From the IMG/VR virus record IMGVR_UViG_3300047157_000114, positions 1 through 60,405 of that record: a DNA stretch of 60,405 nt; one strand, written 5' to 3'. The notes below the pieces were generated by a model. The model worked only from the letters and a program-made list of their open reading frames with translations, was not told the DNA's origin and did no database searches. Source of the stretch: a virus. Below are positions 12,848-59,723 of the stretch, piece after piece (within the stretch, counting starts at the first letter, position 1; each line of letters opens with the position of its first letter). The position numbers were made by a program, and so were the translations under genes.

Positions 12848-12935
12848 ATTCTCAAAGCCTCAACTAAACTTTATAATTGTATTTATAATAAACGCAGTGA
12901 TACTTTACGTTATCTTCTGGAACTTATTTAATTAG
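12837..12935 (+). CDS. Single-span membrane peptide (32 aa)
   Basis: ATG 12837 overlaps the previous gene. The peptide begins MKYKFSKPQLNF and continues with a hydrophobic span IIVFIINAVILYVIFW, ending NLFN. That is a basic N-terminus plus one membrane helix. It is the last + strand gene; its stop overlaps by eight bases the end of the convergent 1,968-residue gene. It could be a small inhibitor, a holin-like or a superinfection-exclusion peptide. Too short to assign. Confidence 0.5.
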   Translation: MKYKFSKPQLNFIIVFIINAVILYVIFWNLFN

Positions 12936-15900: not shown

Positions 15901-18834
15901 AGTTAATATTTCCGCAGGCAACACACCTTCTTTAATAGCCGCTCTAATGTCTTTTGGGTTTATTGTAAATATATTTTTAAGCACAACAGTTGTACCTTCT
16001 GTACCCAGCTTACCTTTTTTAATATTACCTAACGCATTTTTTCTATTTCTGTTATCAATAGTCTTCTTTCTTTCTTTTTCAACCGCTTCTTTTTTAGCCT
16101 CACTTATTTCTTCTTTAGTTTGTTTTTTCTGCGCTTGTTCTTTTTGTTTTTCTTCTTTTACTTTTACATCCACCGCCTCCTCTTCAGCAATTCTTTGAGT
16201 TGTCTCTGGTGATGCTTCAATAACTCTTTGAATGTTTGTTGGAGAAGCGTTTAGTCCTGTTAATTCTTCAAATCTATTTTTTAAATCTGTTAGTAGGTTA
16301 GGCGTAAAAACCTCTAACGATCTATTAAATTGAGCTTTTGTTTGAAATTCATTTATAAAATCTGTAACTTCGACTAAGTCCGGAATAGGTAAATTATTAT
16401 CAATAAAAGTTTCTGCCCATCCGTCTTCTAAACTGACTCCGCCTTTATCTTTTTTTGCAATCCAAGTTTTTCTAAACTCAGGAGAAGAATTTATTAATTT
16501 TTTACCTGTTACAAATTCATAAGATTCGGGAGTAAATTTTATTGAAAATAATACACCTAAAGGATTTAATGATATATCGGAGCTTGTTTGCTTTTGTTCT
16601 TTTATTTTTTCCTGAACTCTTTCAAATTGCTGAGCTACCTCTTTAGGATTATTACTTTTAATAGAAACTTCAGTTGAAAAATCTACTTCCTCACCTCCTT
16701 CAAAAACTACTGATTCTCCCTCTTCTACATTAATTAACCCTTGGTCTAATATTTTTTTCTGTACTCGAGATAAAGATCTTGCAGATGGTTTCTTTCCATC
16801 CTTAGTAATACTAACAATCTTATTGTCTTTTATTACTACATCAAAGTTTCCTATTTTATTTGTAGCTGGAGCTACTTCCTCAACAACCTCTTCTTTTACC
16901 TGAGTTCTAAACTCTTCAAGTACAGGTTCACCTTCTCCGTAATCCATAGTCATTCCCTCCCTGTTTACTGTATTATTTAAAAATTGTTGAGCCTCAGTTT
17001 TAGTAGTAGAAGTTCCTATAAAATCTGTTTTAATATTTCTGATAATCCACTTATTACTTCCATCTTCATCTAATTCTATTATAGAGCCATCTCTGTTGTC
17101 TATAATTTGAAAATCTTTCTTGGCTTTTCTCGGATCTTCTGGTAGTGTATAGGTTTCCTCTACTACCTCGCTCTCCTCAACCTCAACCTCAGTCTCGACC
17201 TCTTCGGCTGGTTGCGCTGGGGTTTCGGCTTGCTCGGATGGAGCCTCTGTGGCAGGCTGCTGTTGTTGGGCGTCTCCCTCTCCCACTGTTTCGCTATCTG
17301 CGGCAGGTTCTTGTACATCCACTTTCTCTGTGCTTGGCTCTTGAAGGGCATTTAATTTATTTATTATTTGAGCTTTAACTTTGGCAGCATTATCTTTTCC
17401 TGCTTCATTACCACTGTCGTTATACTCTGTTAATTTATTTTGTAAAGATACTAATTCTAATATATCCTCTTCAGTAGCATTAGCCAACTGCTCTGGAGTC
17501 ATGCCTTTTTTGTAGCTTTCTATATCCAATAACTCCTTTTTTCTTTTTTGTAACTCTGCTTCTAATACAGGATTGTCTTCTATTTTTATTTTAATGTTAT
17601 CTAATTCTGTATAATCCTTAGTAGTTTTTATTATTTCTTTTACAGCCTCTTCAGAAACTTCTTCAGTGTTTACTTTGTATTTAGGAACTTTAGCTACAGC
17701 TGTTACAGTACCTATTAAAGATGGACTTGCTATTTCTCCAATGGCTTCAAAACCAATCTCTGCTACATCCATTTCTTGGCCTGCCGCTGCTCTACCTATA
17801 GCTTCTCCTGCACCCCCTCCTACTGCCTGCACTCCAAGCCCTGCTGCTGCTGATGCAGCTCTTCCTGCTTGCGTTCCTAATTTTAGGGCTACATTTCTAC
17901 CTACATTAGCTCCAACTCCAGCTGCTAAACCACCTGTGAGTGCGCTTATTGTTGATATAGTAGCACCTCTTGCTAATGATCTTCTGGTAATATTACCCAT
18001 AGCCTCGTCATCTTCTAGTATGGTTCTAATATTGTCGTCTGTAAAATCTAAACTTTTTTCATTTAATTCTTCTTTTAAAAACTCAGTAAAAGATAAGCCT
18101 GTTTCAAGAGCTCCCGTCATTCCAAGTATTGCTCCTGCTCCTGCTCCGGCTGGGCCAGCTAATGCTCCCGCTCCTGCTCCTGCCGCTCCCGCTCCAATCG
18201 AGGCTGGGTTTAGCATAGCTCTGAGGGATGAGGTAGCTACCTGTATTGCTGCTGTTGGATTTTTAGCAATACCTTTTATAAAACCTTTAATTCCTTTTCC
18301 TTCCGCTTCGTATATTCTACTAAAATCTTGCATCTCTTCTGAGGGTGCAAAGGACTCCATGTTTTCAACTGCGTTTATATATTGTTGTAGGTTTTTATCT
18401 GAGACATTTGAACCTGAAGCAAATACTTTTATAGCATCATCAACAGTTGCCCCTTGTCCAGCTCCTGTTTTCCAAGCTCTATATATATCTCCAAAAAAAT
18501 CTGTGACTTCGTTTTTACCAAAAGCTCTTTCTATTGCTGTATCTTTTTCAGGTCCAGCTCCTACGTTAAGACGTTGGTTTCGTGATAATGCGCTGGGCTG
18601 AGAAGTGCCAGTTTCCAATGGTGAAACCATATCGGGTTCGACTTTTTTTTTTACACCCATCAATCCTGAAAAATCATCGAGTGAACCAGCGTAACCTTCT
18701 TCTGTAAACAAAGTATAAGAATCTCCAAGAGCATCAGGATTGCTGTATATTAACTCAACAAACTCATCAAAGCTACCATTGTATCCTTTCTGACTAAATA
18801 AAGTGTAAGCGTCTTGGAGTGCCTGCTCATTCAT
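12928..18834 (-). CDS. Giant internal virion (ejection) protein, 1968 aa
   Basis: The first ~57 residues hold two copies of a small repeat, AYTLFSQKGYNGSFDEF (10-25) and SYTLFTEEGYAGSLDDF (40-55), found at the start of some large marine-phage virion proteins. Residues ~195-260 and ~295-350 are Ala/Gly-rich and hydrophobic, suitable for membrane insertion. Residues ~480-570 are Glu/Pro/Ala-rich linkers. The rest is long helices with basic and acidic stretches. The C-terminal third (LSYPDQMIGRPLYLGEFVRV and NAFMSNFFAFEYTTARTAVN) recalls the helical domain of large polyvalent phage proteins. By position after two smaller virion proteins it matches T7 gp16-type ejection proteins. No lytic transglycosylase motif is seen. 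Confidence 0.62.
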   Translation of the reverse strand: MNEQALQDAYTLFSQKGYNGSFDEFVELIYSNPDALGDSYTLFTEEGYAGSLDDFSGLMGVKKKVEPDMVSPLETGTSQPSALSRNQRLNVGAGPEKDTAIERAFGKNEVTDFFGDIYRAWKTGAGQGATVDDAIKVFASGSNVSDKNLQQYINAVENMESFAPSEEMQDFSRIYEAEGKGIKGFIKGIAKNPTAAIQVATSSLRAMLNPASIGAGAAGAGAGALAGPAGAGAGAILGMTGALETGLSFTEFLKEELNEKSLDFTDDNIRTILEDDEAMGNITRRSLARGATISTISALTGGLAAGVGANVGRNVALKLGTQAGRAASAAAGLGVQAVGGGAGEAIGRAAAGQEMDVAEIGFEAIGEIASPSLIGTVTAVAKVPKYKVNTEEVSEEAVKEIIKTTKDYTELDNIKIKIEDNPVLEAELQKRKKELLDIESYKKGMTPEQLANATEEDILELVSLQNKLTEYNDSGNEAGKDNAAKVKAQIINKLNALQEPSTEKVDVQEPAADSETVGEGDAQQQQPATEAPSEQAETPAQPAEEVETEVEVEESEVVEETYTLPEDPRKAKKDFQIIDNRDGSIIELDEDGSNKWIIRNIKTDFIGTSTTKTEAQQFLNNTVNREGMTMDYGEGEPVLEEFRTQVKEEVVEEVAPATNKIGNFDVVIKDNKIVSITKDGKKPSARSLSRVQKKILDQGLINVEEGESVVFEGGEEVDFSTEVSIKSNNPKEVAQQFERVQEKIKEQKQTSSDISLNPLGVLFSIKFTPESYEFVTGKKLINSSPEFRKTWIAKKDKGGVSLEDGWAETFIDNNLPIPDLVEVTDFINEFQTKAQFNRSLEVFTPNLLTDLKNRFEELTGLNASPTNIQRVIEASPETTQRIAEEEAVDVKVKEEKQKEQAQKKQTKEEISEAKKEAVEKERKKTIDNRNRKNALGNIKKGKLGTEGTTVVLKNIFTINPKDIRAAIKEGVLPAEILTRYNELAKLIGQRKAVLLDLPEVREIKKKADALYNELIDGINKEIEEAGDTEVEQVDVDKLKTDILSMPVKINPTLDKASRDLATKIKRLSDADLDLLIEETEDGTQDVRKLNQLELIKKNINAGFVPAAANDIINTIETRKDTKSVVPKVEKISTKGLQGGLRKSFFNIGRALGLIKTGNFFEAVFKSNPKTVFDDLMGNANDTTIFEKLIRPLAAAFSQYDVQRSNVLKESIEKIEKLIAFDGNKRIERSQNEIIKDKMKIMTYLLQLEHESNPIESNQEQNLTPPALAFIEETINYYIENSPAEADVTVEMLQEIKKEFTVNGKIDLGKLKNSFSTNINKAVDEYRKAFDNLADKTDFVSAVLRRNKVNLFNNYVKHVVLYNPSDKEAVYNAQRDKFTQKASAKSGSIEERIPGAKALSFDPSYALMKATDDILLDFNMTNEIRKFRMKINSLKKTEGLTPLQQQAVIALERSMEKALASTFDSINSDPSATTTLINEIRRIGYEAALVSAPRAVAELSSNFLFAISANPDATLDGIKNYGGVVKENGTMLNFLSNIGSTEATKLANVDEITGKLTDDLGVDKYVSKSGKAAPQLKSILLQINNYGPKQLRNFTAELSNKILSYPDQMIGRPLYLGEFVRVFEQETEIRLTEDDIRDMAKGPGESKYLSQEYAEAINKAAIAADKQAIMSTTSRNPILAIEKFKRKKDAGAFQEIYREANAFMSNFFAFEYTTARTAVNALFNEGAISEKQALGLLLGITLRMSMYQIIYKVLSDNVDQAFREKDDDDIDEVQELVDETKRSLTGSILTLLTRQTMGNVPFAAIAYGLERFNENNLGGLRSDEEYDSFKHSIVYSQLGKKDLESENLMTNLATLFAGPYGTILRRAERNFELAQRTQTRKTESAKQRAEDELTANMLLDISGNAGLLPFYKDVRRIINAKRNKEYKQKQSELSKSELRKLNPKLYKKLYGPGSAEARLRALKRKLDSN

Positions 18835-18839
18835 AACTT

Positions 18840-20451
18840 TTAATTATTATATTTTGTAGGGTCTACCACTACTTCCTCATCCTCTACAACAACTTCTTCT
18901 TCTTGAGGCGCTCCAGGATTATAGAAATCATTATTAATAATAAATTCAAAATCAGAACCTTTTATAGTTGTGTTTGTTTTTTTAGCATTTCCAATAGCGT
19001 TCATAATCTTTTCAAGATAGTCTGAAATTTTATAATCAACAGGCACTACTATATCACCCTCAGTTACACCAGGTATATTAATTACAATTGAAGGTTTAGT
19101 TTGAGCGCCACCCCCATATTTACGATATTGTTCAAATGAAATTGGTTCTTTACTCTGGTCTTCGTATGCAATTTTTTCACCACCTTTATTAATAGTTAAA
19201 ACCGCATCTTTAACACCAACTGTATTTAATACCTCATTTAAATTTATAGCAACATCTCTTTGTTTTTGCTCTGTATCTATAGAATCTTCGTTTATTGACC
19301 TTATGTAATTATTAGCAGTCACATCACTACCAGAAGTGGATCTAAAGAAATTAGTAGGCGAGCTTACATTAGAAGCAGTTGAATTTGTTTCAGCTAACAA
19401 TTCATCTTGTTTTAATTTTAAAGTTTCATCGAACTGTCTTACCCCTTCCTCAAATGCTCTATCAGCTCTATCAAGCTGCTCTTGTTGATACGCGCTAATT
19501 TCATCTTTTACTTCTACAGATATGGAATTATTAATTTCATCTGTAACTAAAGCTAACGCAGCATCTCTATCAAAAGAATACTCATTTGTATTCATATCAT
19601 AATATATTGTCTTCTCGTCATCTTTTTTACTTGGGTCTTTAGTAAACGTATAACCATTTTGTGCCAGTATACTAATCATTTGCGATTGGTCTCCTACAAT
19701 AGATTCTGCTAGTCCATTCAAAGCTCCTTCAGCAGTCTCAGTGTCAACTTCTACACCTTGGATGGTTGTAATTACTTTTCCGTTTTCATCAGTATACTTT
19801 TTTACCCCTCTGTTTTTTAAATTTTCAGATATAAGATTTTTTGTAATTATAGGATAGTTTTTCATCGGAAGATAAATACCCAAGCTGACTTACATTAACT
19901 ATTTCATTAGTCGGATTGCCATCTTCATCTGTTTTTACTAGTATTAACTCATTGGTTCCCGGGTCAACAATAGCAGTTGTGTTTTTAAAATCTAACATAT
20001 CGGAGGCAATCTGAAGCTGAAATATTGACTCAGCAGATAGTTTTTTATTTGGATCATTAGACCTAGCAAGCTCCATTAACCTTCCATAGTTATCATTAAA
20101 GTTTTTAGAATAAAGAAAAAAGTTCTCAGTGCTACTCTTAAGGTTAGCTCTTTTAGTATAATATTCTTGCTCAGTAATTTGACCTGACTTTAATTTATTT
20201 AATAAATCTAAAGATGCAGAAGATGCTTGTCCAGAAAACGAACCAACAACTTTGTTTAGGTCTGTATTATACCCTTGAGGTTTATTTATTAAGTCTTTCT
20301 GTAAGTCATTATATTTTTCCTGAATGTCATCCTTACGTTTCTGACGATCAACTTGGTCAGCCTTAATTCTGTCAGTAAAGTTCTTGCTTATCTCAGCCCA
20401 GTTAACCTGTACTGGGTCATCATCTCTTACATATCCGTATCCTAAAGCCAT
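18840..20451 (-). CDS. Virion protein, gp15-like position, one frameshift (~536 aa)
   Basis: Two frames form one protein. 20451-19825 begins MALGYGYVRDDDPVQVNWAE and 19883-18840 ends EEVVVDPTKYNN. Removing one base from the T6 run at 19837-19842 joins them as DEKLSYNYKNLISENLKNRG. The product is rich in helices with a coiled coil (QLDRADRAFEEGVRQFDETL) and an acidic C-terminus. It lies between the gp14-like and giant ejection genes with gaps of only a few bases. Programmed +1 shifting is possible but a homopolymer error is simpler. Confidence 0.6.
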
Positions 20452-23546: not shown

Positions 23547-25835
23547 TCAATTAAAAGAATTAAAAATTTTTGATTTAGGTATTTCCCAAATCCAATTTTT
23601 ATTATCTTCTAACCCTCCGCTCATTACTACATTATCACCTTTAGTAAACCATCTTGTGATAAAAAACAGAGCATATCCTATTTTCGCTGGTATTAATGGT
23701 TTATAGCTTACATCTATTATGTTTAGTTCTTTATCTAATTTTACAGCGTAATGATTGTATGTTCTATCATTATATATTTTTGTATGAACTAAATAGATAT
23801 AACATTGTTGTTCTTCAAACCAAATTGGTTGCGTTGAACCACCTACTTTTACTTTGGCACTAAAATATAATTCATCTTCAGGAAATTTATTATTGAATTT
23901 ATTTTCAACATCAATTATTTTTTCAAATTCAAAATTACCTTTATCTATATAAACAACAAAATTAGGAGATGTATTATATATAAAATGTAAAACATTATTA
24001 TGAATAAAGAATAACCAATTTTTCTCCCACATTACTTCATCACCAACACCAAAACGCATTCTATTAGGCTCTTCTACATCTATATCTTTTATAAAACGAT
24101 AATGTTTATCTAATAATCCTATTCTTGTATTCCAATTTTCATCAATGTATGCTACTGAGTGATACATTTTCTTTTTATATATGAATGATCTATAGTCTTC
24201 AAATTTAGCTATTTGATTGTATGTAATTTCTTTTTCACTATAATCAATTAATTTTAAATTTTTATCAAATTTAAATTCATATAGTGTTCTACAATCACCT
24301 AATTTTTTCATAAATTCAGTTCTTGCTGTATCTCTATCTACACGTGCTACACCTTTATAGCCTTTAGATATTGGTATTAAAGATAAATTGTGTGAACAAT
24401 ATTCAGTTTCTATAATTTGTAAATCATTTTGTTTACTTGTTCTCCAAGTTCCTTCAAACATGTGCGTTATATATATATCATCATCATTTATTTCAAATGG
24501 ATTATTAAATTTTTTAGCATTAGAATGCGATTGATTACTGCCAAATCTATTTATTGATAATAGTTGTGATTTATTTTTATTTATATCGTTCTCGAAATTA
24601 TGTTCTCTACCAAAATAATCTAAGATATGTTTTGTAAATCTACCTGGTCCTGTATTTTGTAATACACCATTTTTTGGATTTGCAATTATATCATTTATTA
24701 ATTTTGATAATGCTGGATGTTTAGGTTTAGTTGCTATAAACCAATTACACACACTTACGTAGTTATCATTTATTTTATCTACTATATCATCAAATATTCC
24801 TAATGATGTATTTGCTTCTAAACCAACAACTAAATCCTGATGTTCAATAAAGTTGTCTAAGGGTTGGTTACAATAAACATCAGTGTCAGCATATACACCT
24901 CCATTTTCATACAAATAACAATACCTAAAGAAATCACTTTTTTCACCTCGTTCAGTTAATGTTTTATAAGCATCATTGTATATAGAATTAGTAAACCAAT
25001 TATCGACTGCGTTTTGATTAAAATAAAGAAAGTTATAATAGGGGTTTTTTTCTTTAAATGAATCAATCATGTAATCATTAACATCTAAAATATCATAAGA
25101 TGTATAAATAAAATTATGAGGTATCAAACGAAATATTTTATCTTCTTGCACATAATCCCAAAACTTTTTATTACCAATAGATTCCATTTCTTGTAATTTA
25201 CCTGGATACTCTACGTGCAATATATCCTTGCCTTCATGACTAACATATTTTGTTCTGCCAAAATCATGCTTTAAAACATATAAATTACCTAATTGTCCTA
25301 TTTCATAATCTGTCTCTTCTTCTCTATTATATGCTTTGTTTACACATTTACCTAATAATGCTGGCCCTGTATAATCTAAATAAAACATTTCTTGTTTGTC
25401 TTTACAGTGCTTTACAATTCTATCAATACATTCTTTTAATAAAGGATTTTGAGGTACAGTACCTATAAAAGCATTACCTAACCATTTATAAGCCATAGGA
25501 TCATCTCGTGTAGCTATAAAATAATTATCACTCAATATCCAATTATTTAATGGTAGCTCACATATTGTGTCAGCGTCTATATATACACCACCTTCAATAT
25601 ACAATACACAATATCGCCACAAGTCCGCTTTAAAAGCACCAGGTATTAAAGTAAGGTATGCTTGTAATACATCTTTACTAAAATGTTTTTTAATAAATTG
25701 TACTCTATCATTTTTATCAAAAAAATAATATTCCCAATCAGGATTTTTTATTTTCCAACTTAAACAAGCTTTACTCATACCCTCAGGTAATTGAGTGGTT
25801 TCAAATGTTTGAAATATTTTTTTAGGTATCAACAT
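23547..25835 (-). CDS. GT32-GT32-beta-propeller fusion glycosyltransferase
   Basis: 762 residues in three parts. Residues ~1-215 form a GT32 (OCH1/capsular type) transferase: IPKKIFQTFETTQLPEG, DLWRYCVLYIEGGVYIDADT with DAD at 87-89. Residues ~235-455 form a second GT32 unit: IPHNFIYTSYDILDVNDY, SDFFRYCYLYENGGVYADTD with DTD at 317-319, then NTGPGRFTKHIL. The last ~290 residues have repeated Trp/Tyr blades (YHSVAYIDENWNTRIGLLDK, NVVMSGGLEDNKNWIW) like the five-bladed propellers of glycoside-phosphorylase relatives. Both DxD motifs are intact. It lies between the two halves of the PT-rich virion protein and overlaps the GT60 gene end, so it probably extends a glycan started by GT60. Confidence 0.82.
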   Translation of the reverse strand: MLIPKKIFQTFETTQLPEGMSKACLSWKIKNPDWEYYFFDKNDRVQFIKKHFSKDVLQAYLTLIPGAFKADLWRYCVLYIEGGVYIDADTICELPLNNWILSDNYFIATRDDPMAYKWLGNAFIGTVPQNPLLKECIDRIVKHCKDKQEMFYLDYTGPALLGKCVNKAYNREEETDYEIGQLGNLYVLKHDFGRTKYVSHEGKDILHVEYPGKLQEMESIGNKKFWDYVQEDKIFRLIPHNFIYTSYDILDVNDYMIDSFKEKNPYYNFLYFNQNAVDNWFTNSIYNDAYKTLTERGEKSDFFRYCYLYENGGVYADTDVYCNQPLDNFIEHQDLVVGLEANTSLGIFDDIVDKINDNYVSVCNWFIATKPKHPALSKLINDIIANPKNGVLQNTGPGRFTKHILDYFGREHNFENDINKNKSQLLSINRFGSNQSHSNAKKFNNPFEINDDDIYITHMFEGTWRTSKQNDLQIIETEYCSHNLSLIPISKGYKGVARVDRDTARTEFMKKLGDCRTLYEFKFDKNLKLIDYSEKEITYNQIAKFEDYRSFIYKKKMYHSVAYIDENWNTRIGLLDKHYRFIKDIDVEEPNRMRFGVGDEVMWEKNWLFFIHNNVLHFIYNTSPNFVVYIDKGNFEFEKIIDVENKFNNKFPEDELYFSAKVKVGGSTQPIWFEEQQCYIYLVHTKIYNDRTYNHYAVKLDKELNIIDVSYKPLIPAKIGYALFFITRWFTKGDNVVMSGGLEDNKNWIWEIPKSKIFNSFN

Positions 25836-27061
25836 TAAACAGGAATGTCTAATCGTTCAGCCCACCCATTAGATGCTGAATGTGCCCAAACAATTATATT
25901 GGTTGGTTTTTTAGTATTTGATTCTACTGGAATATTAAAATTATTTTTATTTTTTATTAATTGATTTAAATGGGTTATGTCTTTTCTCCATAATTCTTTT
26001 TTCTGTTCATCTTCAAATATTATAGCGCAAAAAGTATAATCATTATATTGGAATTGATTACCATGTAAATTTAATATGTGATTGAATTTGAGATGATACT
26101 GTTCATTCTTTATACCTAATGTTGGTATTTCATTATTTAAACATGATTGTCTAATAGCCCTATCCCTAAACCTAATTCCGCTATATTCTTCGTAATCCTG
26201 AAGCGTTCTTTCTTTACCAAGACCATAGACTCCAAAATGTTTTTCATTACAAGGAGAACAAACTTCACCATCTACTCCTAAGAGCTGTCTTACTCTGTTA
26301 TGTGTGTGTGTATTTTTTTTTACCCAAGTTGTATCGTCGTCCCAATGTTTTGTTCTACCTGTTCTGGTGTACTCGTGATAAGCAATTATTTCATTTGGAT
26401 GAAATAAATCATACCCATGTGTAAAAGACCTAACAGCAAGAGTTATTTCTTCACCGTGAAAGTAAAAAGAAGGATCATGCTGAACTTCTTCTGCGTGCTT
26501 ACCTGTTGTAAAAGCAAAATGTGCTGAAAAAAATCTTGCTGGTAAAGGTTTGCTTGTGTCTTCAATTGTATAAGGAAGGAAAAACACTACACCTTCAGGC
26601 GTAAATCTATCAAATTTCATTCCCCAAACATCAGCGTTATTTTTAATGTTAAAATTATTTGGGTCGTATGCTGTTGCGTAAGTAGTAAGCAATGGCTTTT
26701 TATGCCCTGCTTCTTGCAGATTCTCATACATTTTAATCAACTTAACATCCCAATGTTTTACAAATCTGTGATGACTATCAAGTTGTAATGTATATTTTTC
26801 ATTATTATATTCTTGCTGTATTAAATTACGCGCCCAACAAGCACCATTTGTTTCAGTATAAGGTATGTCTAATATTTTTACCCTTTTGTCTTTTTTATAT
26901 TTACCTAAATCATCCCACTTATCTTCTGTTGAATGTTGCCAAGCAACACATACTATTATATTATTAGGAAATTTTGCGTTGTCAAATAATGAATTTAAGG
27001 TAGGTACTAATTCTGGGTCACGGTAAGATGCAATTTGGATGAATATACTATTTTCCGACAT
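25835..27061 (-). CDS. GT60 polypeptide GlcNAc-transferase (PF11397-type)
   Basis: 408 residues. It follows the GlcNAc-transferase (GT60) pattern almost throughout: IFIQIASYRDPELVPTLNSL, YTETNGACWARNLIQQEY, TLQLDSHHRFVKHWDVKL with the DSH metal motif at 95-97, LLTTYATAYDP, FYFHGEEITLAVRSFTHGYD, IAYHEYTRTGR, and GLGKERTLQDYEEYSG. In eukaryotes GT60 enzymes attach alpha-GlcNAc to Thr in Thr/Pro-rich mucin-like proteins or to hydroxyproline of Skp1. Here the gene is flanked by two ORFs with (TP)n linkers, the expected kind of acceptor. Nucleotide sugar would come from the host. The ORF is intact. Confidence 0.88.
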   Translation of the reverse strand: MSENSIFIQIASYRDPELVPTLNSLFDNAKFPNNIIVCVAWQHSTEDKWDDLGKYKKDKRVKILDIPYTETNGACWARNLIQQEYNNEKYTLQLDSHHRFVKHWDVKLIKMYENLQEAGHKKPLLTTYATAYDPNNFNIKNNADVWGMKFDRFTPEGVVFFLPYTIEDTSKPLPARFFSAHFAFTTGKHAEEVQHDPSFYFHGEEITLAVRSFTHGYDLFHPNEIIAYHEYTRTGRTKHWDDDTTWVKKNTHTHNRVRQLLGVDGEVCSPCNEKHFGVYGLGKERTLQDYEEYSGIRFRDRAIRQSCLNNEIPTLGIKNEQYHLKFNHILNLHGNQFQYNDYTFCAIIFEDEQKKELWRKDITHLNQLIKNKNNFNIPVESNTKKPTNIIVWAHSASNGWAERLDIPV

Positions 27062-27570: not shown

Positions 27571-30500
27571 GATGTTGGTCCTGCTGTTTTTACACCATTG
27601 AAAAATTCATAATAAGTAGAACCATCCTCTGACACGAAGATTGTACCTCTATCAAGCTCTGTACAACCTAAACCTGAATACAGTCTGGTTGCTGAAGCTA
27701 CACTGTTAGCGTTAAAGTATTTAATACCGCTGCTGTCTGGAGGCGCACAACAACCATTATAAAGGCCTGCGGAGAAACCTACTTCAATTGCAATACAAGC
27801 ACCAGGCGTAGGCGTAGGCGTTGGACTAGGCGTTGGACTAGGAGTCGGAGTCGGTGTTGGGCCTAGCGTTGGACTCGGTGTCGGTGTCGGAGTAGGAGTC
27901 GGAGTAGGGCCCTCAGGCGTCGGTGTCGGAGTAGGAGTCGGTGCTCCAGGAGTTGGAGTAGGAGTCGGTGCTCCAGGAGTTGGAGTTGGACTCGGTGTCG
28001 GACTCGGTGTAGGTGTAGGTGTTCGTGTAGGCAATACAGGTGGAGTTGGAGTTGGTGTAGGTGGTGGAGTAGTACATGAATTACAATCTGTATATTCTGC
28101 ATTTGCAAGCGTACCTAACGTTCCGGTAGGGTCAACAATTTCATAACAATTTCCATCAGGCATTAATAATACAGTATAAGTTGGGAATGTGTTTGCAAGT
28201 GCTCTACCCACAGTATAATTATTAAACCCACCATCACATCTTGTTATTGTATAGTTATCATAAGATATACCTGGTGTTGGTGTTGGTGTTGGTGCTCCAG
28301 GAGTCGGTGTTGGTGCTCCAGGAGTAGGGCTCGGTGTAGGTGTTGGTGTAACACAAGGTCCTACAAGCGTAACAGTACCACCACCACTTGTTACAGTAGG
28401 CACCCCTAATGCACATACTGATGCTGAATCACCAGCATCTACACTTTCTGTTTGTGATGCACCACTACAATCAGTATAACTAAAGTTACCAACTAAACCT
28501 GACGCTGCTTCTAAATCCCATTCATTACAACCTCCAGGCGTCGGGGTTGGTGTTGGAGTTGGCGTTGGTGTTGGAGTAGGGTTAGTAGCTATACAAGTAT
28601 CACAATCTGGGTAAACATTAGTATAGTCATTAGCGTTTACAGTTGAACTAGTTTCATCTATCTCGTAACATCTACCGTCAGCCATTAATACTATATCGCC
28701 CGGAGCGTTTCCACTAGCGTCTGCTACTCTAACATTAATATAGTTAGCACTACCTTGTCCTGGACACATTGTAACAGTATAATAATTAAATGCAAAGGTT
28801 GGTGTTGGTGTTGGCGGAGGTGTAGGCGTTGGGCCAACCGGAGTAACTGTTGGTGTCGGAGTTACAGTCGGACTACAACTTACTCCTGTGTCACTTGCAC
28901 TACCACCGTTTACTGAAGGTGTTGTTCCGTTTAAAACACATACGTCAATATCATAATCTGCAGGCAATATTCCTGTCTGAGTGTTTCCATCACAATCAGT
29001 ATATGAGTAATTGCAACCACCAGTTCCACTTGGACAAGCCAATATCCACTCAGTACAAGATGGTGTCGGTGTCGGTGTGGGAGTCGCAGTAGGAACTGGA
29101 GTCTGAGTCGGCGTCGGACCGGGTGTAGGCGTTGGACTCGGTGTAGGTGTAGGTGTTGGGGTAGCAGATGCACATAAAGCACAATCTGTATAAGTTTCTA
29201 CTATATCTACTGTACTAGTTGAACCTGTTACTGAAGGACTTTCATAACAAACGCCACTATGCTTTACGACAGGATCAAATGTACCTCCTGAAACCAGCCT
29301 AAATACTTGAGTGCTTCCGCCTCCACACTGAGTATACTCTCTATAATCATACACAATAGGTGTCGGAGTTGGGGTCGGTGTTGGTGTTACAGTTGGAGTC
29401 GGTGTTACAGTTGGACTCGGTGTTACAGTTGGAACTGGAGTTGGTGTAGGCGTTGGTGTACCAGTAGACCTATAATCCCATACTAAATATAAAATACTTC
29501 CGCTTGCTGGCATTATGAAATCTGCCGAATAAATTGTAGGAGCGCCAACACTAGATATTGGTGCTGCATCTATTGCTAAAGAAAGTAAACTTGTAATATC
29601 TGTTACATTATTTTGATAAAATGTGTTTGTTCTTAAATATTTAAATTTATCCACTGAAGGGTTAAATACAAAATCATCAAAATTAATTTTGTTTGAATTT
29701 ATAGTAACCGTAGAACCGTCAACTGGGAAAACTCCACTACCCTGCGACCCTGAAAATAACTGGTATTGAGAGATAGCAAAAGAAGCAGATGTGCTTGTAA
29801 ATTCCACTAAATTAGATTCATTAGGTGAAACCGTAACTCCGTCAGTCCAACTAAATTCGTTGTGTATAAATTCTCCAGCTTCAAGTGGATCAGTTACACA
29901 AATGTTATATATGTTTAAAGCATCTGCTCTTGGACAACTTACACTTATTTGAATAGTATCATTTTGATTTGAATCAGAACTTACAACTATGGTAACCTCT
30001 TGTATATTTGGAACATTTTTATCAAATGTAAAACTGCCAGATTTTTTAACAGAACCAGATGTATATGTTACACCTTTATAGATTGCTTTAATTGTATAAC
30101 TGACTTGAGAAATAGAACCCTCTGTAATTAATTGAACTCCAGACTCGTCTGTCATTAGAACATTAGTTTCGCTTTCAATATCTTGTTCTCCTTCTTTTGG
30201 AATTACATAACTAACAGTCACCAATCCTGTTTGTTCTGTTACATCTACGCAATACACAAAGTCTTGATTAGCTATTACTGTTATATCTTGTGTAACACCA
30301 CACGCTAAACAAACTGGTATTTCAGGTTTTAATATTGTATTTGAAGTTAAAACATACTCATCCATGTAAGGGTCGTATCCTCCTAATTTTTGAGTGGTAA
30401 ATGCTCCGGTAAATAAATCTCTAAACCAGCTTCTCATACCAGTATCCGATATAACAATAAGTCTTTCATCTGAAAAAGATCCTCCCAACAATTGAATCAC

Positions 30501-39744: not shown

Positions 39745-42186
39745 TTATCTTGGTTCAAATTCAGCATAAGTCAAAACCATCTAAAGAATCTTCATTAGAT
39801 TCAAAGTTTTAGGAGGTAAATTATTTTTCTTTGAGTTTAATTAATTCAGATTGCTCAGTATTTTGCTGACTTATTCTGTCGCTTTTGCTTGCTCTTTGTC
39901 GCTCTTCTCTTTGAGATAATTGAGCTTGAGTCATACCCTTGCAATTGCATTATAATTAAACTCTTGCTGCATTAACTGAGCTTTTAATTGAGCTTCCGCT
40001 TTTTGTTTTTCTATTTCAAAAGCAACGTCTGCTTGTCTATACTGCATCTTAGCTTGTGTCTCCAATTGTATTTTTTGCATTGCACTTGTGCTGCCATTTC
40101 TTGAGATTTCAATTGTTGCTGAGAAATCATTGCTTGCTTTTGCATTTCTCTTTGCTGATCTTGCTTCTTGTTTAGCTTTACGTTTTACTTTAAGTAATTG
40201 ATTTGCAAGCTTTAAGATTTTTAATTTCACGTATATCAATAGCGTCTTCTAGGTTTATATCTCCTTTTGATAATGCCATTTGAATATTTTGCTCAAGCAT
40301 AGCTTTTTGTTCTTCATCTGGAGACAAGTTCTATAAAACATTCCAAAGTCATATATATATAAATCAGATATATCTCCAAGTATACTAACATTGTATTTAC
40401 CAATTTTATTTATAAAGTCATCTTTAAAATCTGCGTATTCTAAAATATCCGCTACCCTGTAAGTTAGCGCTTCAGCTAACGTTCTATATATGTAAAGACT
40501 TCCATCTAATATATGACGAGTAGCGGTATTAGAACTTAATGCTGCTAATTTTTGTACACCAACTAAAGCATCAGAGTTAGCAATCCACTACCATCTCTCG
40601 CTTCATTTAAGCCTGTTACAGCTCGAATCATATCTAAATAGTGATTTAGGTTCCCTATTAGCATTTGTGTTTTAGAAGCTCCTGAATTGCTTGTTAGTTG
40701 CTGTATAGGAATTTTACCTTGATTGTAATCTCCTTCTTGCGTATAACTTCTACCAATCACACTACCTGTTTGGAAATATAAACGTAATGCATCTTCTGGA
40801 TTATATGCTGCTCCTGTACCCAAGTCAACCTCATTTAAACCATCTGCATCAATATATACACCATCTGGTACTGTACGAGCATATAACTTGTTGTAGCTTT
40901 AAATGTGTCATCTGAATCAAATCAGCATACGGAATCATTCTTCTAACTAGAGACTCAATAACCCCTTTATACATTCTAGGAGCTACAGCTACATAATTAG
41001 GTATTGCATGTTGAGATGCAGACTTAGGTCTTACCATGTTTTTAGCAAGCTCCCATTTTAAAATTATGTTTGTACCCATAACCATTACTCCATCATACCA
41101 AACATCAATTGTCTTTTCTACCTTTTCAAAATTGTTTTCTTCCATCATTTCATCAGGTGGATTAAAACCATCATCTTTTTCTATCATACTCATATTACCG
41201 TTCTCTTTAACTTTTTTCTTATAAACCATCTTCTTAGTGGTTTTATAATTAAAGTACATCAACGTACAAGTATCACGATAGAATATATCGTTTTCGTAAA
41301 ACTGAGCTGTATTAAAATAATTATACCAGCTTTGAGAATATTTAGATATTTTATCTAAATCATCATTTGTAAGGGTAGGGTCAATCTTCATTAACTCAGC
41401 AATAGGAACCGTTTTAATTTCACCCCAGTAAAAACAATCTTTAAAGTGAGGGTCTTCAGTATAACTATAAACTACATTAGCTGGGTCTACATAAGCTACT
41501 TTAACTCCAGAGCCAGGAAGAAATTCATGTTTTGCCACAGCCATACCAGTTACCATCATATCATAATCTAATCGTTTACGAATATCTCATAATGGTTCTC
41601 AGCAAACATTGTATCAATTGCTTCTTCTTCAGCAATCTCTATAGCTGGTTTATAATTTAAATTCATATAAAGAGATAACTCTTCATCACTTGCAGGCAAC
41701 TCATCTGGATTCATTATAAATGGATCAAATCCCTGTATTTTTTTGAACTATTTCAAGAACATCTTTAGCAGCCATTTGACCTTCTATCATTTCTTGATAC
41801 TTACTTCTTTTAGATTGTGACAATGCATCTTGAGCATACGCTTTTACTTTAAACAACCTATCTGACATTCCGTTCACAACTATATCCACAAACTTTGGAA
41901 TAATTGGAACTGGAGTCCAGTCAAGATTTAAGTAAGACAAATCTCCGTCTACTGCTAATTCATTTTTATATTTTGCAATTGATTGTTCGCCTCTTGCATA
42001 TAGACGTAGTCTGTTAAAGTCCCTCCACTGACTATAGTATCGGCATCCGTTAGAATCTTTACGAAACCATTCATATTGAATAGCTTGTCCTATTTGTAAC
42101 CCAAACTCATCGGTCGCTTTCTCAGCATCAGATACAAATTGACTAGGGAATCCTACTGATGAAATGTTTATGTTTACCTCTTTCAT
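39745..42186 (-). CDS. Portal protein (crAss-like), frameshifted
   Basis: ATG 42186 overlaps the terminase TGA. Open pieces in order: 42186-41725 (YEWFRKDSNGCRYYSQWRDF, RLRLYARGEQSIAKYKNEL, PIIPKFVDIVVNGMSDRLFK), 41559-40849 (MMVTGMAVAKHEFLPGSGVK, VAYVDPANVVYSYTEDPHFK, RRMIPYADLIQMTHLKLQQV), 40823-40563 (LRLYFQTGSVIGRSYTQEGD, IRAVTGLNEARDG), and a Gln/Ala-rich coiled-coil tail (40239-39931) ending DSLDGFDL...EFEPR at 39745. This is the crAss-like portal with its long C-terminal coiled coil. At least five indels interrupt it. Confidence 0.78.
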
Positions 42187-44402
42187 CTAATTAATTCACT
42201 TAATGTTCCTTTGTTATTATATGTTGCAAAGTTAAGACTTATTTTTGACTCTTTTTTCTGCGGTAGATATACATGCTTTTGATTTGCCATAATAGCTAAA
42301 CCTGAGCTAATACTAGCATCGAACTTAGTTCTAGCGCTTATATCAAACCTAGCCCAATCTTCTAATGTTCTAGTAAAATACATACTACCCATTTGGTCTC
42401 CAGCTCTATAACCACCATCTAAATCTAAACCTACATATTTTTCGATATGTGACTCTATAGCTGCAGCATGTGACTGCTTTAATATCCTCAGAAGTATTCG
42501 GTATACCTCCTAGTTCTTTTTCTGTCTTAGATAGTTTAGTGTAATGTTTGTCAGGCCTGTTCATACTAAACCCTCTGTACCCTCTGTTTTTAAAGTGATA
42601 GAGTAGCCTAGGCTTGTTATTCTCAACCAGTATAGGCATCCCATAAAACACACAAGCCATAATACTTCTTCAAAAAATATCTCTGCCGTTTGTGGTCTAG
42701 CAACATATTCTAAAAAAAACTCATTGCTTGGAGCTTCATCCATACTATATTTAGTTAAACCATGTAGCGCTCCATTAGAACCTCCACCTCCAACAGTTCC
42801 AGATATATCATACGAGTCACAACCAAATGCTCCTATATGTTCATTTGATGGAAAGAACACTCCGTGTTTAGAAAACTTAGCATTGTTTAATCCTTTCTTA
42901 GGAGTCCAGGACACTTTGAATCGTCCTCTTGAATCTGGCGTCCATATAACCTCTGAGTCTTTGATTCCATCTTTCCAGTAAAACCTACCTCTTGTTACAT
43001 GATGCTCCATGATTAGTGAATCATTATAATCTATCTGCTGATATATCTTAGTTAAATTAAATAGCGATGACTTACTCTCATCTCTAAATGCGTGCGACTC
43101 GGTTCGAGGGAACTGTCTGTAAAATTCATTTAGCGCATCTGCATCTTTTTTAATGACTCTACCTCTGCTTCCCAATAATCTATTGCTCCGTTTGTAATCC
43201 ACTCATCATCTACCCCTCTAATTTTTTTCTCAGGCTTTCTAAATACAGGCATACCGTACCTATCTATAAAACCTTCCATGTTCCACTCCATAGGAATAAA
43301 TAGATTATACAGTCCTGATTTAGTCTGACCATTCGCATTACGAGTCTTTAAATCTGAATCCTCAAACAAACGCTTAAAGTTCTCACCACCTTTACTAAGC
43401 GCATTTGAAGTAGACCCCATCATACACTTACCTATTATCTTACTACCTAACCTTAAACAAGTTTTAGTAACACGCCAGTTGTTTGAATGTTGTTTGGCTT
43501 AAGCCACTTACCTGATTCATCATGAACTAAAAGCAAAAGTTTCTCACCATCATACGAGTTGTCGTCCGTATTCTTCCAGTCAATTGTTGTGTCTAAACCT
43601 GTCAGCTCATCATCCATCACCTCATGCATATTTTTCTTTGTAATCTTAGAAGCAGGAATCCTAAAAGCTAATTCTGTTTTAGGTTTATCCATACCATCCT
43701 GAATAGGTTTAAAAAAGAATGGAAGTCTATTAGCTATTGGAACCACCTTATCTGTAAACATTTTTTTAGCATCAGAACCAGTCTTAGATAATATACCAAC
43801 TCTTGAATCTCTAGCCAGAGTTCCTGTATTGACACACTCAGATGACCCCATAAAAGAAAACCCTGAACGTCTTATTTAAGATAATCCATACCAAAACACC
43901 TCTTGTCTGCCTTACAAGCTTCCCAGTATATAAAAAAGATTCTATTAGCTTCTCTAAAATCTGGATAGCCTACATCTATACTTGTCCACTGTAAATACAT
44001 ATAATGAGAACCTGTCATATATGTAGGCTTTCCATTATTATAAAACCAGTATCCCAGCTCTCTTCTATCAAACTCTTCCTCTATATAATCAACCCATTTG
44101 TTTTTAAAACGCAGAAGGTCTTTCGTTCCACTGGAATATAGAATTTATACTAGATAAATCTTTAGGCAAGCTCTTCTCGCTCCCAGTATTGATCTTTTTT
44201 TTCAGACCGTTTTTACTTACTTCTTTCTGGCTCTGGTGGAATACCGATAACTAAACCATTAATGCTAATATCTTTCCTATTGTTCCTGTTTTAGATATAA
44301 TAACTAAATCATATTTTTCACTATACCCATATAAGCCATGTCTTGCTTGTATTCTTTTTTTTAAAAACAGACTTAGGAATATAATTTTATTCTTGATATA
44401 GT
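42183..44402 (-). CDS. Terminase large subunit (crAss-like), frameshifted
   Basis: Pieces from N to C: YIPKSVFKK, YSEKYDLVIISKTGTIGK, VIGIPPEPE, RPSAF..KWVDYIEEEFDRR, GKPTYMTGSHYMYLQWTSID, FFIYWEACKADKRCFGMDYL and RRSGFSFMGSSECVNTGTLA; then open 43851-43453 (ILSKTGSDAKKMFTDKVVP, EKLLLLVHDESGKW with the Walker B-like LLLVHDE), 43423-43130, 43202-42561 (nuclease part with FGCDSYDISG) and 42392-42183 (KFDASISSGLAIMA). It drives packaging. The exact start is unclear because the N-terminus is broken; the small terminase-like gene lies immediately upstream. Confidence 0.8.
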
Positions 44403-44681
44403 TTATTTTGACCTTCGTTCTGCAAACCCTTGTTTTGTATTTGTTTTATCTACGTGTCCTCCAGAGTTTATTACTTCTTCCTCTGAATCTATTTTATTTA
44501 GTATCTCAAACGCATCAAATATAGCAAGCTTCTTAGTTGCTGCTGCGTTCTTTAATCTATCTGCCGCCAACTCATCGTCTGGGTCAGGCTTTATAATATC
44601 TTCTTTCGCTACCTTTATTAGTTGCTCTACAGCTCTACGCCCTGCGTGTATAATTTCTTTTTTTAATTCCTCTGAGTTCAT
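44403..44681 (-). CDS. Probable terminase small-subunit-like protein (92 aa)
   Basis: MNSEELKKEIIHAGRRAVEQ, then DDELAADRLKNAAATKKLAI and a C-terminal FAERRSK. Proteins with an ADRLKNAAATKKL core stand directly before the large terminase in many Bacteroidota phages and may be the small subunit. This is context plus pattern; no DNA-binding motif is clear. Confidence 0.5.
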   Translation of the reverse strand: MNSEELKKEIIHAGRRAVEQLIKVAKEDIIKPDPDDELAADRLKNAAATKKLAIFDAFEILNKIDSEEEVINSGGHVDKTNTKQGFAERRSK

Positions 44682-56706: not shown

Positions 56707-57126
56707 ATGCCATAAAGTACGGACTCTAAACGACAACCAGATACTTTATCAAAGCTAAGTGATCTTGATCTTGACATGCTACTGTTTCTATACAGCGAAG
56801 AGATATTTTCTAAAAAAAAGTTTGAAGAGTTTGACAACCTGCTTATATGGGATGGTGAAAGATTCAATCGCCTGTACAAGGAAGGATGGATAGAGGTGTT
56901 TCGTAATCGTAAGAAAACCACAAAGTCTTTGTATACCCTAAGTTATAAAACTGAAAGAGTTATCAGTGGTATTTATAAAAAGCTTTCTGGGGAAGAAATA
57001 CCAACCTCTTTATCAGGCAATCCTATGTTTGCAAAGAATGTAAAGTATACAGACAAAGTATATCGCAATATGATTCTACAGATGAATGAAGTTATACGAC
57101 AACAACGACGTCTTTCTCCTGAATAA
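56707..57126 (+). CDS. Winged-helix-like protein, crAss-like type, with in-frame TAA at codon 3
   Basis: The only + strand gene of the right arm. The clean ORF starts at ATG 56776 (MLLFLYSEEIFSKKKFEEFD), but the same frame is open upstream from 56716 as STDSKRQPDTLSKLSDLDLD, and ATG-CCA-TAA at 56707 sits in frame. LSDLDLDMLLFLY...F...FDNLLIWDGERFNRLYKEGWI and LYTLSYKTERVISGIYKKLS resemble the small winged-helix-like regulator of crAss-like phages. The TAA is probably a one-base error or a nonsense mutation. It converges on groES. Confidence 0.6.
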
Positions 57127-57349
57127 TAGTGAAAGGTTTATTGTTAATTAGCATGGTAAACCCAGCCCTTTTGTCATAGTAGATGGTATCGTGAGATTTA
57201 ATTACACTCACGTCTGTTCCCTCTATAACCACAATTCCTTTTTTGTATCTTAGTTGGTTGGTGTCTTCAGAGCTAAGTAGTAATCCTGATTGTGTTTTGA
57301 TTTCCTCTTCTATAGGTTGGATGATTATGTTTTTTCCGATTGGTTTCAT
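57092..57349 (-). CDS. groES: GroES co-chaperonin
   Basis: 85 residues: MKPIGKNIIIQPIEEEIKTQ, SGLLLSSEDTNQLRYKKGIV, VVIEGTDVSVIKSHDTIYYD, ending IIQEKDVVVVV. It has the GroES order: N-terminal strand, mobile loop with a hydrophobic tripeptide (GLLL in place of GGIVL), G-x-V strand and C-terminal strand. It is about 10 residues shorter than E. coli GroES. Its partner GroEL is encoded 0.5 kb upstream in the same operon. The end overlaps the + strand gene by 35 bases. Confidence 0.82.
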   Translation of the reverse strand: MKPIGKNIIIQPIEEEIKTQSGLLLSSEDTNQLRYKKGIVVIEGTDVSVIKSHDTIYYDKRAGFTMLINNKPFTIIQEKDVVVVV

Positions 57350-57359
57350 ATTGTTTATT

Positions 57360-57440
57360 TTAAGATGCTGCTAATACAAAAAGAATTAACAGAAAGAAAA
57401 GTATTAGGTAGTCTAGTATTTCTTCTAAAAAGTTTTTCAT
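57360..57440 (-). CDS. Single-span membrane micropeptide (26 aa)
   Basis: MKNFLEEILDYLILFFLLIL ending FVLAAS. ATG overlaps the TGA of the upstream gene (ATGA), and groES starts 11 bases downstream. Pure membrane helix with an acidic N-terminus. Role unknown. Confidence 0.5.
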   Translation of the reverse strand: MKNFLEEILDYLILFFLLILFVLAAS

Positions 57441-57619
57441 TTACTGCTTTTATAATCTATTACAAACCCAATAGCCACAAGTAGATTCATACCAATTGAG
57501 GACGCTACCTCTACTAGGTCATGAAACGAATGTATCGATAAATGCACATGCCCTACAATCCAAAACGGTATGGCTAGGTTTTGACTTATCCAGATAAGTG
57601 TAAACTTAAAAAGCCGCAT
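57437..57619 (-). CDS. Small membrane protein (60 aa)
   Basis: MRLFKFTLIWISQNLAIPFW, IVGHVHLSIHSFHDLVEVAS, SIGMNLLVAIGFVIDYKSSK. Two hydrophobic stretches around a His-rich loop. It overlaps both neighbours, so it is translated with the chaperonin operon. Confidence 0.55.
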   Translation of the reverse strand: MRLFKFTLIWISQNLAIPFWIVGHVHLSIHSFHDLVEVASSIGMNLLVAIGFVIDYKSSK

Positions 57620-57881
57620 TAGGATCTTTTATTTTTTTCATCCTGTCCGACTTTAAAAATCTTTTAAAATCTCGAGCTCCCACTTTATATCCAGCGTCCA
57701 AAAGGTCTAGCTTTAAATCAGCATCATTTATTTTTTTAGAAAAATCAACGCTTCCATCTGAATTAATAAAACAAAACCTATAGGTGTTATTTATCATAAC
57801 CATCTTTTCTGAAAGAAACTGTTTGTAGTCTTCATAATTTTCTAAAATATGATTATAATTTGTTAGTGATATATATTTCAT
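57606..57881 (-). CDS. Hypothetical protein between groEL and groES (91 aa)
   Basis: MKYISLTNYNHILENYEDYK, QFLSEKMVMINNTYRFCFIN then VDFSKKINDADLKLDLLDAG and RDFKRFLKSDRMKKI. Basic at the C-terminus. Overlaps the groEL stop by four bases (ATGA). No family recognised. Confidence 0.6.
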   Translation of the reverse strand: MKYISLTNYNHILENYEDYKQFLSEKMVMINNTYRFCFINSDGSVDFSKKINDADLKLDLLDAGYKVGARDFKRFLKSDRMKKIKDPNAAF

Positions 57882-59473
57882 TGTGTTTCTATTGTTCTTG
57901 CCATAGTAACTATAGCGTTAGTAGATAGTATAGTCACCGCTACCGACACTGCATTTTGAAGTGCCTGCTTGGTAACCTTCAGTGGGTCTATGATCCCCAT
58001 CTCAATTAAATCCCCTTCCTGACCTGTCTTAACGTCAAGCCCTATGTTCTTCTCGTTATACACTCGGTGGTTTTCTATCCCTGCGTTTTGTTGTATTTGC
58101 TTTAGGGGCTCTAACAGTGCTCCCCCCAAAATCGCCTTGGCGATTTTTTTATTGGAATTTTTCTCCCCTTGCATTAACAGCCCCTCTTGATACAGAGCCA
58201 GTCCAGCCCCAGGGAGTATGCCTTCCTCTAGGGCACTACGGACTGCGCATACTGCGTCATCAACCCTATCGAATAGTTCTTTCTGTTCTAGGTCTGTGTT
58301 CCCACCCACGTAGATAACACCAACGCCTCCTGTGAGCGAAGCGATACGTGATAGTATAAATTCCTTATCTACTTTTGCCTGTGTAATTTTGTGTGCGTCC
58401 CATAGCTGGTCCACTCTTTCTTTGATTGCCGTCTGGTCCACATGGTCATTGTCTTTCAATATGATCGTTGAGTCCTTGCCCACTATTATCCTTTGTGCGT
58501 GACCTAGGTCCTCAAAGTTTATAATGCTCAGGTCATCACCGGTCTTCTCTGAAAAATATGTAGCACCCACTGACAGTGCGATATCGCCCATCAGTTCATG
58601 TTGCTTATAGCCAAAGGAGGGTGGAATTATGGCGCAAAGCTTCAAGCTGTTCTTCATGACATTCGCCGCTAGGGTGTTTATCACGTTTTGTGAACATGGG
58701 GCTACAATTAATAATTTCTTCCCCTCGTTTATTATTGGTTTTAATATATTCTCTATGGACAGTATGTTGCTAATCTCTGCATCAGATACTAGCACATAGA
58801 CATCCTCGAGTATACACTCATCTTTTTTATGGTTGTTTATAAACAGCGGTGATGAATATCCCCTGTCTACCTTTAGACCATTGGTAGTCTCGAAGCTTGT
58901 CTCAGCTCCCTGGGATTTCTCCACCGTTACTATCCCATTTTTACCCACACTATTATAAGTGTCGGCTATTATTTTCCCTACCCCCCTGTCATTGTTCGAG
59001 GAGATGGTCGCCACATCTAGCAGTTTTTGTTTGCTCACCTTACGAGTCTTCTTCTTTAGATTGTCCACTACCTCATTGGTTAGCGTGACCATATCACGAA
59101 GGACCTGAGTTTTATTATCCTCCTCCTTTATAAGCTCCATACCCTTAGTCACTATCGCTTCTGTCAGAACAATAGCCGTAGTTGTCCCATCCCCTGCATT
59201 GGCTGCAGTCTTCGATGCCGCTTCACGCAGCATTTGAACAGCTAGGTTCTCCACAGGATCTAATAGTTGTATGGACTTGGCAACCGTCACCCCATCCTTG
59301 GTCACGGTTATACCGTGGGTATGACTAGGCGACTCTATAAGAACTGTGTTCCCCATAGGCCCAAGCGTAGACTTGACGGCCATAGCCATCTTTGATATTC
59401 CGCTGATAAGTTTCTTCTGTGCTTTGTGACTAAAATGTAAGTCTTTCGGTGAGTACCCCCCTGATGTATTCAT
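57878..59473 (-). CDS. groEL: GroEL chaperonin (60 kDa type)
   Basis: 531 residues, complete group I chaperonin: MAVKSTLGPMGNTVLIESP, VTKDGVTVAKSI, NAGDGTTTAIVL (ATP loop, GDGTTT at 94-99), intermediate and apical regions (NGIVTVEKSQGAETSFETTN, LKVDRGYSSPLFI), and RVDDAVCAVRSALEEGILPG, keeping the hydrolysis Asp. It ends VTMARTIETQ, lacking the Gly-Gly-Met tail of bacterial GroEL. It probably folds phage virion proteins. A leader with AAATCAAATCTAATG and a TATCTTCG box precede it, downstream of an ATGTTGAAA repeat cluster. Confidence 0.93.
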   Translation of the reverse strand: MNTSGGYSPKDLHFSHKAQKKLISGISKMAMAVKSTLGPMGNTVLIESPSHTHGITVTKDGVTVAKSIQLLDPVENLAVQMLREAASKTAANAGDGTTTAIVLTEAIVTKGMELIKEEDNKTQVLRDMVTLTNEVVDNLKKKTRKVSKQKLLDVATISSNNDRGVGKIIADTYNSVGKNGIVTVEKSQGAETSFETTNGLKVDRGYSSPLFINNHKKDECILEDVYVLVSDAEISNILSIENILKPIINEGKKLLIVAPCSQNVINTLAANVMKNSLKLCAIIPPSFGYKQHELMGDIALSVGATYFSEKTGDDLSIINFEDLGHAQRIIVGKDSTIILKDNDHVDQTAIKERVDQLWDAHKITQAKVDKEFILSRIASLTGGVGVIYVGGNTDLEQKELFDRVDDAVCAVRSALEEGILPGAGLALYQEGLLMQGEKNSNKKIAKAILGGALLEPLKQIQQNAGIENHRVYNEKNIGLDVKTGQEGDLIEMGIIDPLKVTKQALQNAVSVAVTILSTNAIVTMARTIETQ

Positions 59474-59522: not shown

Positions 59523-59723
59523 ATGTTGAAATGTTGAAAATAGCTCTCCAACTTACAATATATATTTTTTTTATTTTTCTTTTTTTTATATAAGGAAAAC
59601 CTGACTCCTTTTTAACATTTCAACATAAATCAATAAAAGTAGTAGTTAAGTAATTAAGAATAAGTAAGTTAAGTCCATGTTGAAAAAAAATATTTTTAAC
59701 ATAGAAATGTTGACTTTCAACAT
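59523..59723. repeat. Cluster of ATGTTGAAA boxes (iteron- or operator-like)
   Basis: At least five full or near copies lie in 200 bases: an overlapping pair at 59523-59539, an inverted overlapping pair at 59611-59626, one at 59677-59685, and a palindrome ATGTTGA-C-TTTCAACAT at 59707-59723. The surrounding sequence is nearly all A/T. Such spacing and mixed orientation suit binding sites of an initiator or repressor. Confidence 0.6.

Follow-up and report, generated by a model that had tools for sequence, protein, structure and literature searches.

The virus genome analyzed here, a 60,405-bp IMG/VR record examined over its whole length and referred to below as the window, carries groEL, three small ORFs and groES on its minus strand. 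The explanation that best fits the locus as a whole, and that we regard as reasonably likely from sequence comparisons, is a functional and vertically maintained phage GroEL/GroES pair, with a GroEL predicted to work as a single ring, a weakened grip on its lid, and passenger genes in the slot between the two genes. That the two genes form a functional phage chaperonin pair is, taken by itself, very probable. GroEL genes have been reported in marine Bacteroidetes phages (Nishimura et al. 2017, PMC5332604) and phage-encoded GroEL in Bacteroidetes podoviruses is thus already published; what is new is the eroded inter-ring surface combined with an altered apical groove. A preliminary description of the locus had also recognized a matched phage pair, and that part of its interpretation stands, but its views that the small genes belong to the system, that the pair answers an unusual folding demand and that its presence in a 60-kb phage is out of the ordinary do not.

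The chaperonin locus and its lineage

The groEL gene (57878-59473, minus strand) encodes a 531-aa group I chaperonin that matches Pfam Cpn60 (3e-53; PF00118 full-length, residues 30-524) and PHROG 5725 (9e-130) and ends in ...IVTMARTIETQ, without a GGM tail. The groES gene (57092-57349, minus strand) encodes an 85-aa co-chaperonin matching Pfam Cpn10 (3e-11) and PHROG 3188 (4e-13). Its AlphaFold model (pLDDT 90.5) has confident Foldseek matches in the PDB exclusively to Cpn10 structures, and both the beta-barrel and the hydrophobic mobile-loop tripeptide (LLL) of a Cpn10 are present. The order, groEL then groES, is the reverse of bacterial groESL. Three minus-strand ORFs of 91 aa (57606-57881), 60 aa (57437-57619) and 26 aa (57360-57440) lie between them, the latter two each with one strong hydrophobic, putatively membrane-spanning, segment. 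A convergent 116-aa ORF (56776-57126, plus strand) overlaps the groES 3' end but lies outside the operon; it matches phrog_17028 (6e-5, unknown function) and is kept in 16 of 17 compared genomes. Neither Rfam families nor tRNA/tmRNA genes were found in the window.

Much of the preliminary description of this layout was borne out: the span 57092-59473 runs correctly from groES stop to groEL start, the complete GroEL lacks the Gly-Gly-Met tail, the short GroES has its GLLL motif (G-LLL, a case of the lineage form GLxL), and a 91-residue protein sits beside two tiny putative membrane proteins. The statement that all the genes overlap by ATGA holds for only two of four junctions: groEL/91-aa and 60-aa/26-aa are 4-bp ATGA overlaps, while the 91-aa/60-aa junction is a 14-bp overlap and a 10-bp gap separates the 26-aa ORF from groES.

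Both chaperonin genes are genuine and undamaged, and purifying selection acts on them: dN/dS is 0.05-0.11 in groEL and reaches 0.11 in groES. Other parts of the contig are less sound. The window has several breaks in each of two genes, the terminase (748 aa in the relative G019) and the portal (811 aa), yet their fragments remain highly identical to G019, where both are intact. Stop-codon reassignment was considered for these ORFs and rejected: the breaks are frameshifts, and they sit at different places in the window, G017 and G018. They are probably uncorrected assembly indel errors, which makes ORF lists of this contig unreliable at 39748-44425 and 22.4-34.1 kb (both minus strand), regions that hold the split terminase, portal and large virion protein (2,151 aa in G019). 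No frameshift interrupts groEL, groES or the three small ORFs; G017 has the same GroES and small proteins as the window, and its GroEL differs by only four nonsynonymous changes.

A scan of viral contigs with the window GroEL recovered 74 loci at 55-99% identity, many on contigs of 57-63 kb. Since groups chosen by GroEL are biased towards having it, a separate search used the terminase alone: groEL was present in all seven terminase-chosen records of at least 54 kb and in 7 of 17 shorter fragments. Wherever both genes could be read (68 loci), groES comes after groEL on the same strand; the sole exception, L041, ends too early for groES to be read. This constant order, together with groEL in every near-complete genome, identifies the pair as a lineage-core, vertically maintained module of ~60-kb podovirus-like phages, and of the gene order proposed as a check in the preliminary description, groEL then groES is kept by related phages. 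A GroEL in a phage of this size is therefore not unusual: it is core to this lineage, occurs in the ~60-kb Elemovirus phages as well, and is on record for Bacteroidetes phages (PMC5332604).

Maximum-likelihood analysis placed the lineage GroELs together, separate from bacterial ones, with 100% bootstrap support; the ancestral Fibrobacteres-Chlorobi-Bacteroidetes (FCB) chaperonin (PDB 9rwr) and PDB 5da8 served as stand-ins for Bacteroidota chromosomal groEL. Identity to the cellular GroELs compared is 36-42%, with the best (~42%) in a plasmid collection, and the best PDB match is the reconstructed FCB ancestor, at 42.9%. A recently acquired host groESL, or host contamination, is accordingly a negligible explanation: we found no point in its support, and the reversed gene order, the separate clade and the low identity all oppose it, as does the only genome-contig match, a phage-sized contig of 61.6 kb binned in a Pseudomonadales MAG. 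The close identity to a host groESL that would have undermined the preliminary reading was not found among the cellular and ancestral GroELs compared (at most ~43%), and with 36-43% identity and a separate clade, contamination or recent transfer is excluded.

The host itself is probably a Bacteroidota bacterium, judging from the terminase. Its named-phage matches are Flavobacterium, Cellulophaga, Tenacibaculum and Maribacter phages plus one uncultured record, and all those with a recorded host infect Flavobacteriia. Identity is 32-46% to phages of Pachyviridae, Pervagoviridae and Elemovirus, and one virion protein is shared with Cellulophaga phage phi13:2.

Inter-ring contacts and the apical groove

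The catalytic machinery of the lineage GroELs is conserved. The ATP/Mg site of the window protein (TLGP, D52, DGTTT at 87-91, D398, D495) is complete, with its residues invariant or nearly so among 58 members; T30, G32, P33, K51, D52, D87-T91, S151, D398 and D495 are the same in 58 of 58. The intra-ring strands are likewise conserved (0.18-0.60 bits). The eight classical inter-ring sites, however, have a mean entropy of 3.06 bits versus 1.09 over all sites, a value reached by none of 20,000 random site sets, nor by sets drawn from the equatorial domain only. At matched diversity (mean identity 65% and 64%), these sites measure 0.91 bits in bacteria and 2.14 bits in lineage subsamples, the minimum being 1.39.

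A double heptameric ring is typical of group I chaperonins but not obligatory, as human mitochondrial Hsp60 illustrates. By the proxy of conserved inter-ring contacts, the lineage does not resemble a double ring: of ten E. coli GroEL contacts (list from PMC7960994), its members keep 0.9 on average, compared with 5-10 in the bacterial set, at an overall identity to Salmonella GroEL of 36%. V464 is charged in 31 of 39 members and the opposite-charge pair R452-E461 is retained in 2 of 39, with the caveat that gaps affect the alignment at 463-467 in some members, although almost every member inspected is free of them at sites 105, 109 and 452; the window GroEL itself still pairs K with E at 452/461. 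V464E is found in ACI, an ancestral chaperonin with a single ring, and the single-ring mutant SR1 is R452E/E461A/S463A/V464A (PMC12696368). Taken together, these losses suggest a single-ring state, which we consider somewhat probable.

Alternatively, the phage proteins may be an ordinary double-ring group I pair in which a new ring-ring interface has evolved; the apical changes would then serve phage-specific clients. The overall fold, the hinges and the GroES partner are conserved, as such a pair would have them, and P. falciparum Cpn60 shows that the contacts are replaceable, having lost those of E. coli and kept its double ring through an insertion (PMC7960994). Inter-ring sites nevertheless vary freely within the lineage (3.06 bits), so no single replacement interface is conserved, and residues 109 and 464 of the interface are frequently D, E or P, which would set like charges against each other if they faced themselves across the two-fold axis. 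These observations leave the double-ring alternative unlikely, although it is the most serious of the rivals.

Substrate and the GroES loop both bind in the apical groove, where the lineage shows consistent changes and is less hydrophobic than bacteria: L234E occurs in 37 of 39 members and V264A in all 39, along with Y203L/M and V263A/S, and the window protein has L234E, V263A and V264A (E. coli numbering). The loss of hydrophobicity from a polypeptide-binding surface could be taken to mean that this GroEL is no longer a folding cage but a decoy or moonlighting protein, for example a hijacker of host GroES. We consider this improbable, since the full ATP site and hinges are conserved, selection is strongly purifying, and a GroES is conserved next to it in each of the 68 loci. 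That GroES, a predicted partner with a Cpn10 fold match, is remote from cellular groESL, as is its GroEL, consistent with a matched phage-encoded pair as the preliminary description held.

The changes on the two sides of the cage-lid contact may instead be linked to the predicted single ring. In 47 of 49 lineage members the GroES mobile loop reads GLxL, which places a leucine at the position of I25. In E. coli, the single-ring variant GroEL-SR holds GroES trapped and becomes active only when its contact with GroES is loosened; its suppressors include GroES I25L (PMC5575113). By analogy, the phage would make its own cage (GroEL) and lid (GroES) during infection, the cage being a single heptameric ring, as the lost inter-ring contacts suggest. 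Without a second ring to eject GroES, a weakened grip would let the lid cycle, and this weakening may come from L234E, V263A and V264A in GroEL together with I25L in GroES. We lean, if only slightly, towards the full form of this proposal: a natural, widespread and obligate single-ring GroEL with a dedicated phage GroES, in which an eroded ring-ring interface is offset by a compensatory weaker cage-lid grip, as in engineered GroEL-SR. L234E might instead reflect client specialization.

Passenger genes and the upstream word array

The space between groEL and groES is hypervariable. Of 68 loci, 28 have at most 5 bp between the two genes or an overlap, 14 have 6-200 bp, and the other 26 exceed 200 bp, the longest gap being 1,268 bp. 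Its contents are unrelated between branches: a PhoH ATPase (Pfam 6e-51), an FkbM-type methyltransferase (5e-8), 242- and 294-aa proteins without a Pfam match, and many orphans of 50-90 aa. The commonest large passenger in part of the lineage (L018, L019, L031, L032, L042) is a 218-aa PhoH-family ATPase.

The window's own small genes follow this pattern. The 91-aa protein has no meaningful family match (Pfam, PHROGs), and its gene recurs in a single near-identical phage, L006 (tblastn against 319 loci). The 60-aa ORF is a real gene, as its dN/dS of 0.05-0.06 shows; it occurs in six groEL-groES slots and in G016, accompanied by the 26-aa gene, and in L058 a 242-aa gene separates the two. The tight packing of the small genes in the operon and purifying selection on the 60-aa gene could indicate cofactors or adaptors acting with the pair, and the preliminary description counted them as part of the system. 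That role is highly improbable, and the slot comparison led us to reject it: hardly any relative has the small genes, the slot holds nothing in 28 of 68 loci and unrelated genes in the others, and the 60-aa relative in G016 lies far from groEL. On this comparison they are interchangeable accessory passengers and not chaperonin parts. Small genes packed between groEL and groES thus need not be chaperonin genes, which matters for operon-based annotation.

Upstream of groEL, at 59523-59723, the window carries six ATGTTGA/TCAACAT words in both orientations, a probable operator or iteron array. The cluster is the only one in the window genome, and its six copies compare with a maximum of three in 60 Markov-3 simulations. 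In G018 (L058, 676-861), whose GroEL protein is 99% identical, the corresponding place holds ATGACGA eight times; the core words of other relatives are ATGTCGA, GTGTCGA, GTGTTGA or ATGCTCA, with five copies of ATGTCGA in MW202828. The simultaneous change of the word in all copies suggests operators or iterons whose sequence co-evolves with a DNA-binding regulator. Word arrays also lie upstream of groEL in L008, L014, L013, L063, L049 and MW202828, and G008 has a second cluster (18932-19109 and 30045-30209).

Folding clients and known chaperonins

The preliminary description attributed the pair to folding demand from large virion proteins, in particular one of 1,968 residues. This protein (12928-18834, minus strand) represents a giant ORF that varies strongly among relatives: their versions run from 1,942 to 3,859 aa and are only partially similar, and the N-terminal 60-90 residues rank with the parts shared most widely. 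Throughout the lineage, groEL coexists with very large ORFs (mostly about 1,900-3,900 aa), so presence tests within it cannot discriminate the folding-need idea. The cavity of GroEL/GroES accommodates about 60-70 kDa, and a 1,968-residue protein is several times too big. Outside the lineage, phi13:2 has a homologous terminase (38.6% identity), a portal gene in the matching place and virion proteins of 1,990 and 1,613 aa, the former close in length to that of the window; it has two GroES, but no GroEL was found in it with 78 queries. The 1,968-aa protein is thus an unlikely reason for the pair. The two GroES annotated in phi13:2 (NC_021803.1) differ from each other (30087-30335 and 40708-41310; 82 and 200 aa), and the 200-aa gene lies just upstream of the terminase.

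The pair may instead fold phage proteins of cavity size, with capsid-type proteins the likeliest by analogy with T4/GroEL and lambda/GroEL. A 488-aa candidate capsid protein gave an AlphaFold pLDDT of only 37, and no relative of it was found in the PDB. Also among the virion genes are a 762-aa protein with capsular-polysaccharide/DXD sugar-transferase domains (23547-25835) and a 408-aa glycosyltransferase (25835-27061), both on the minus strand; most relatives lack them, the exceptions being G019 and, for the 408-aa gene, G012.

The closest named record, Podoviridae sp. ctfjg026 (MW202828; GroEL 62%, terminase 75% identical), differs in an empty slot, where groES overlaps groEL, and in a giant virion ORF of 3,859 rather than 1,968 aa. 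Elemovirus (Flavobacterium phages vB_FspP_elemoA-F, ~60 kb) shares the gene order and a similar genome size, with a terminase 45.6% identical, but its GroEL is 37% identical, L234 is kept, and groES follows groEL immediately without inserted genes. Cellulophaga phi38:1 and Calle (Pervagoviridae) likewise combine a group I GroEL with a homologous terminase in Bacteroidetes podovirus-like phages. In Calle_2, groES is near groEL, but the order is groES-ORF-groEL, unlike groEL-(slot)-groES in the window, and GroEL identity is 36.8%.

Giant phages also encode GroEL-like chaperonins: OBP gp246 and AR9 gp228 form single heptameric rings, while EL gp146 is ring-splitting (PMC9598537, PMC7185714, PMC5934643). 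The EL-type protein is 27% identical to the window GroEL, whose own ring state is a prediction from sequence. These giant-phage types act without a co-chaperonin, whereas the window lineage always has a cognate groES adjacent, a genomic proxy for its use. Another parallel is E. coli GroEL-SR/SR1, in which the R452/E461/S463/V464 ring contacts are lost and weaker GroES binding restores function (PMC5575113); those variants are engineered, while the predicted counterpart here is natural and lineage-wide.

Arguments about the transition from double to single ring, and about the release of the lid, draw on mitochondrial Hsp60 and on E. coli mutants made by engineering. A phage family this diverse, with dozens of sequences in which second-ring contacts appear to be gone and lid contacts altered, would offer a natural, expressible test set for both.
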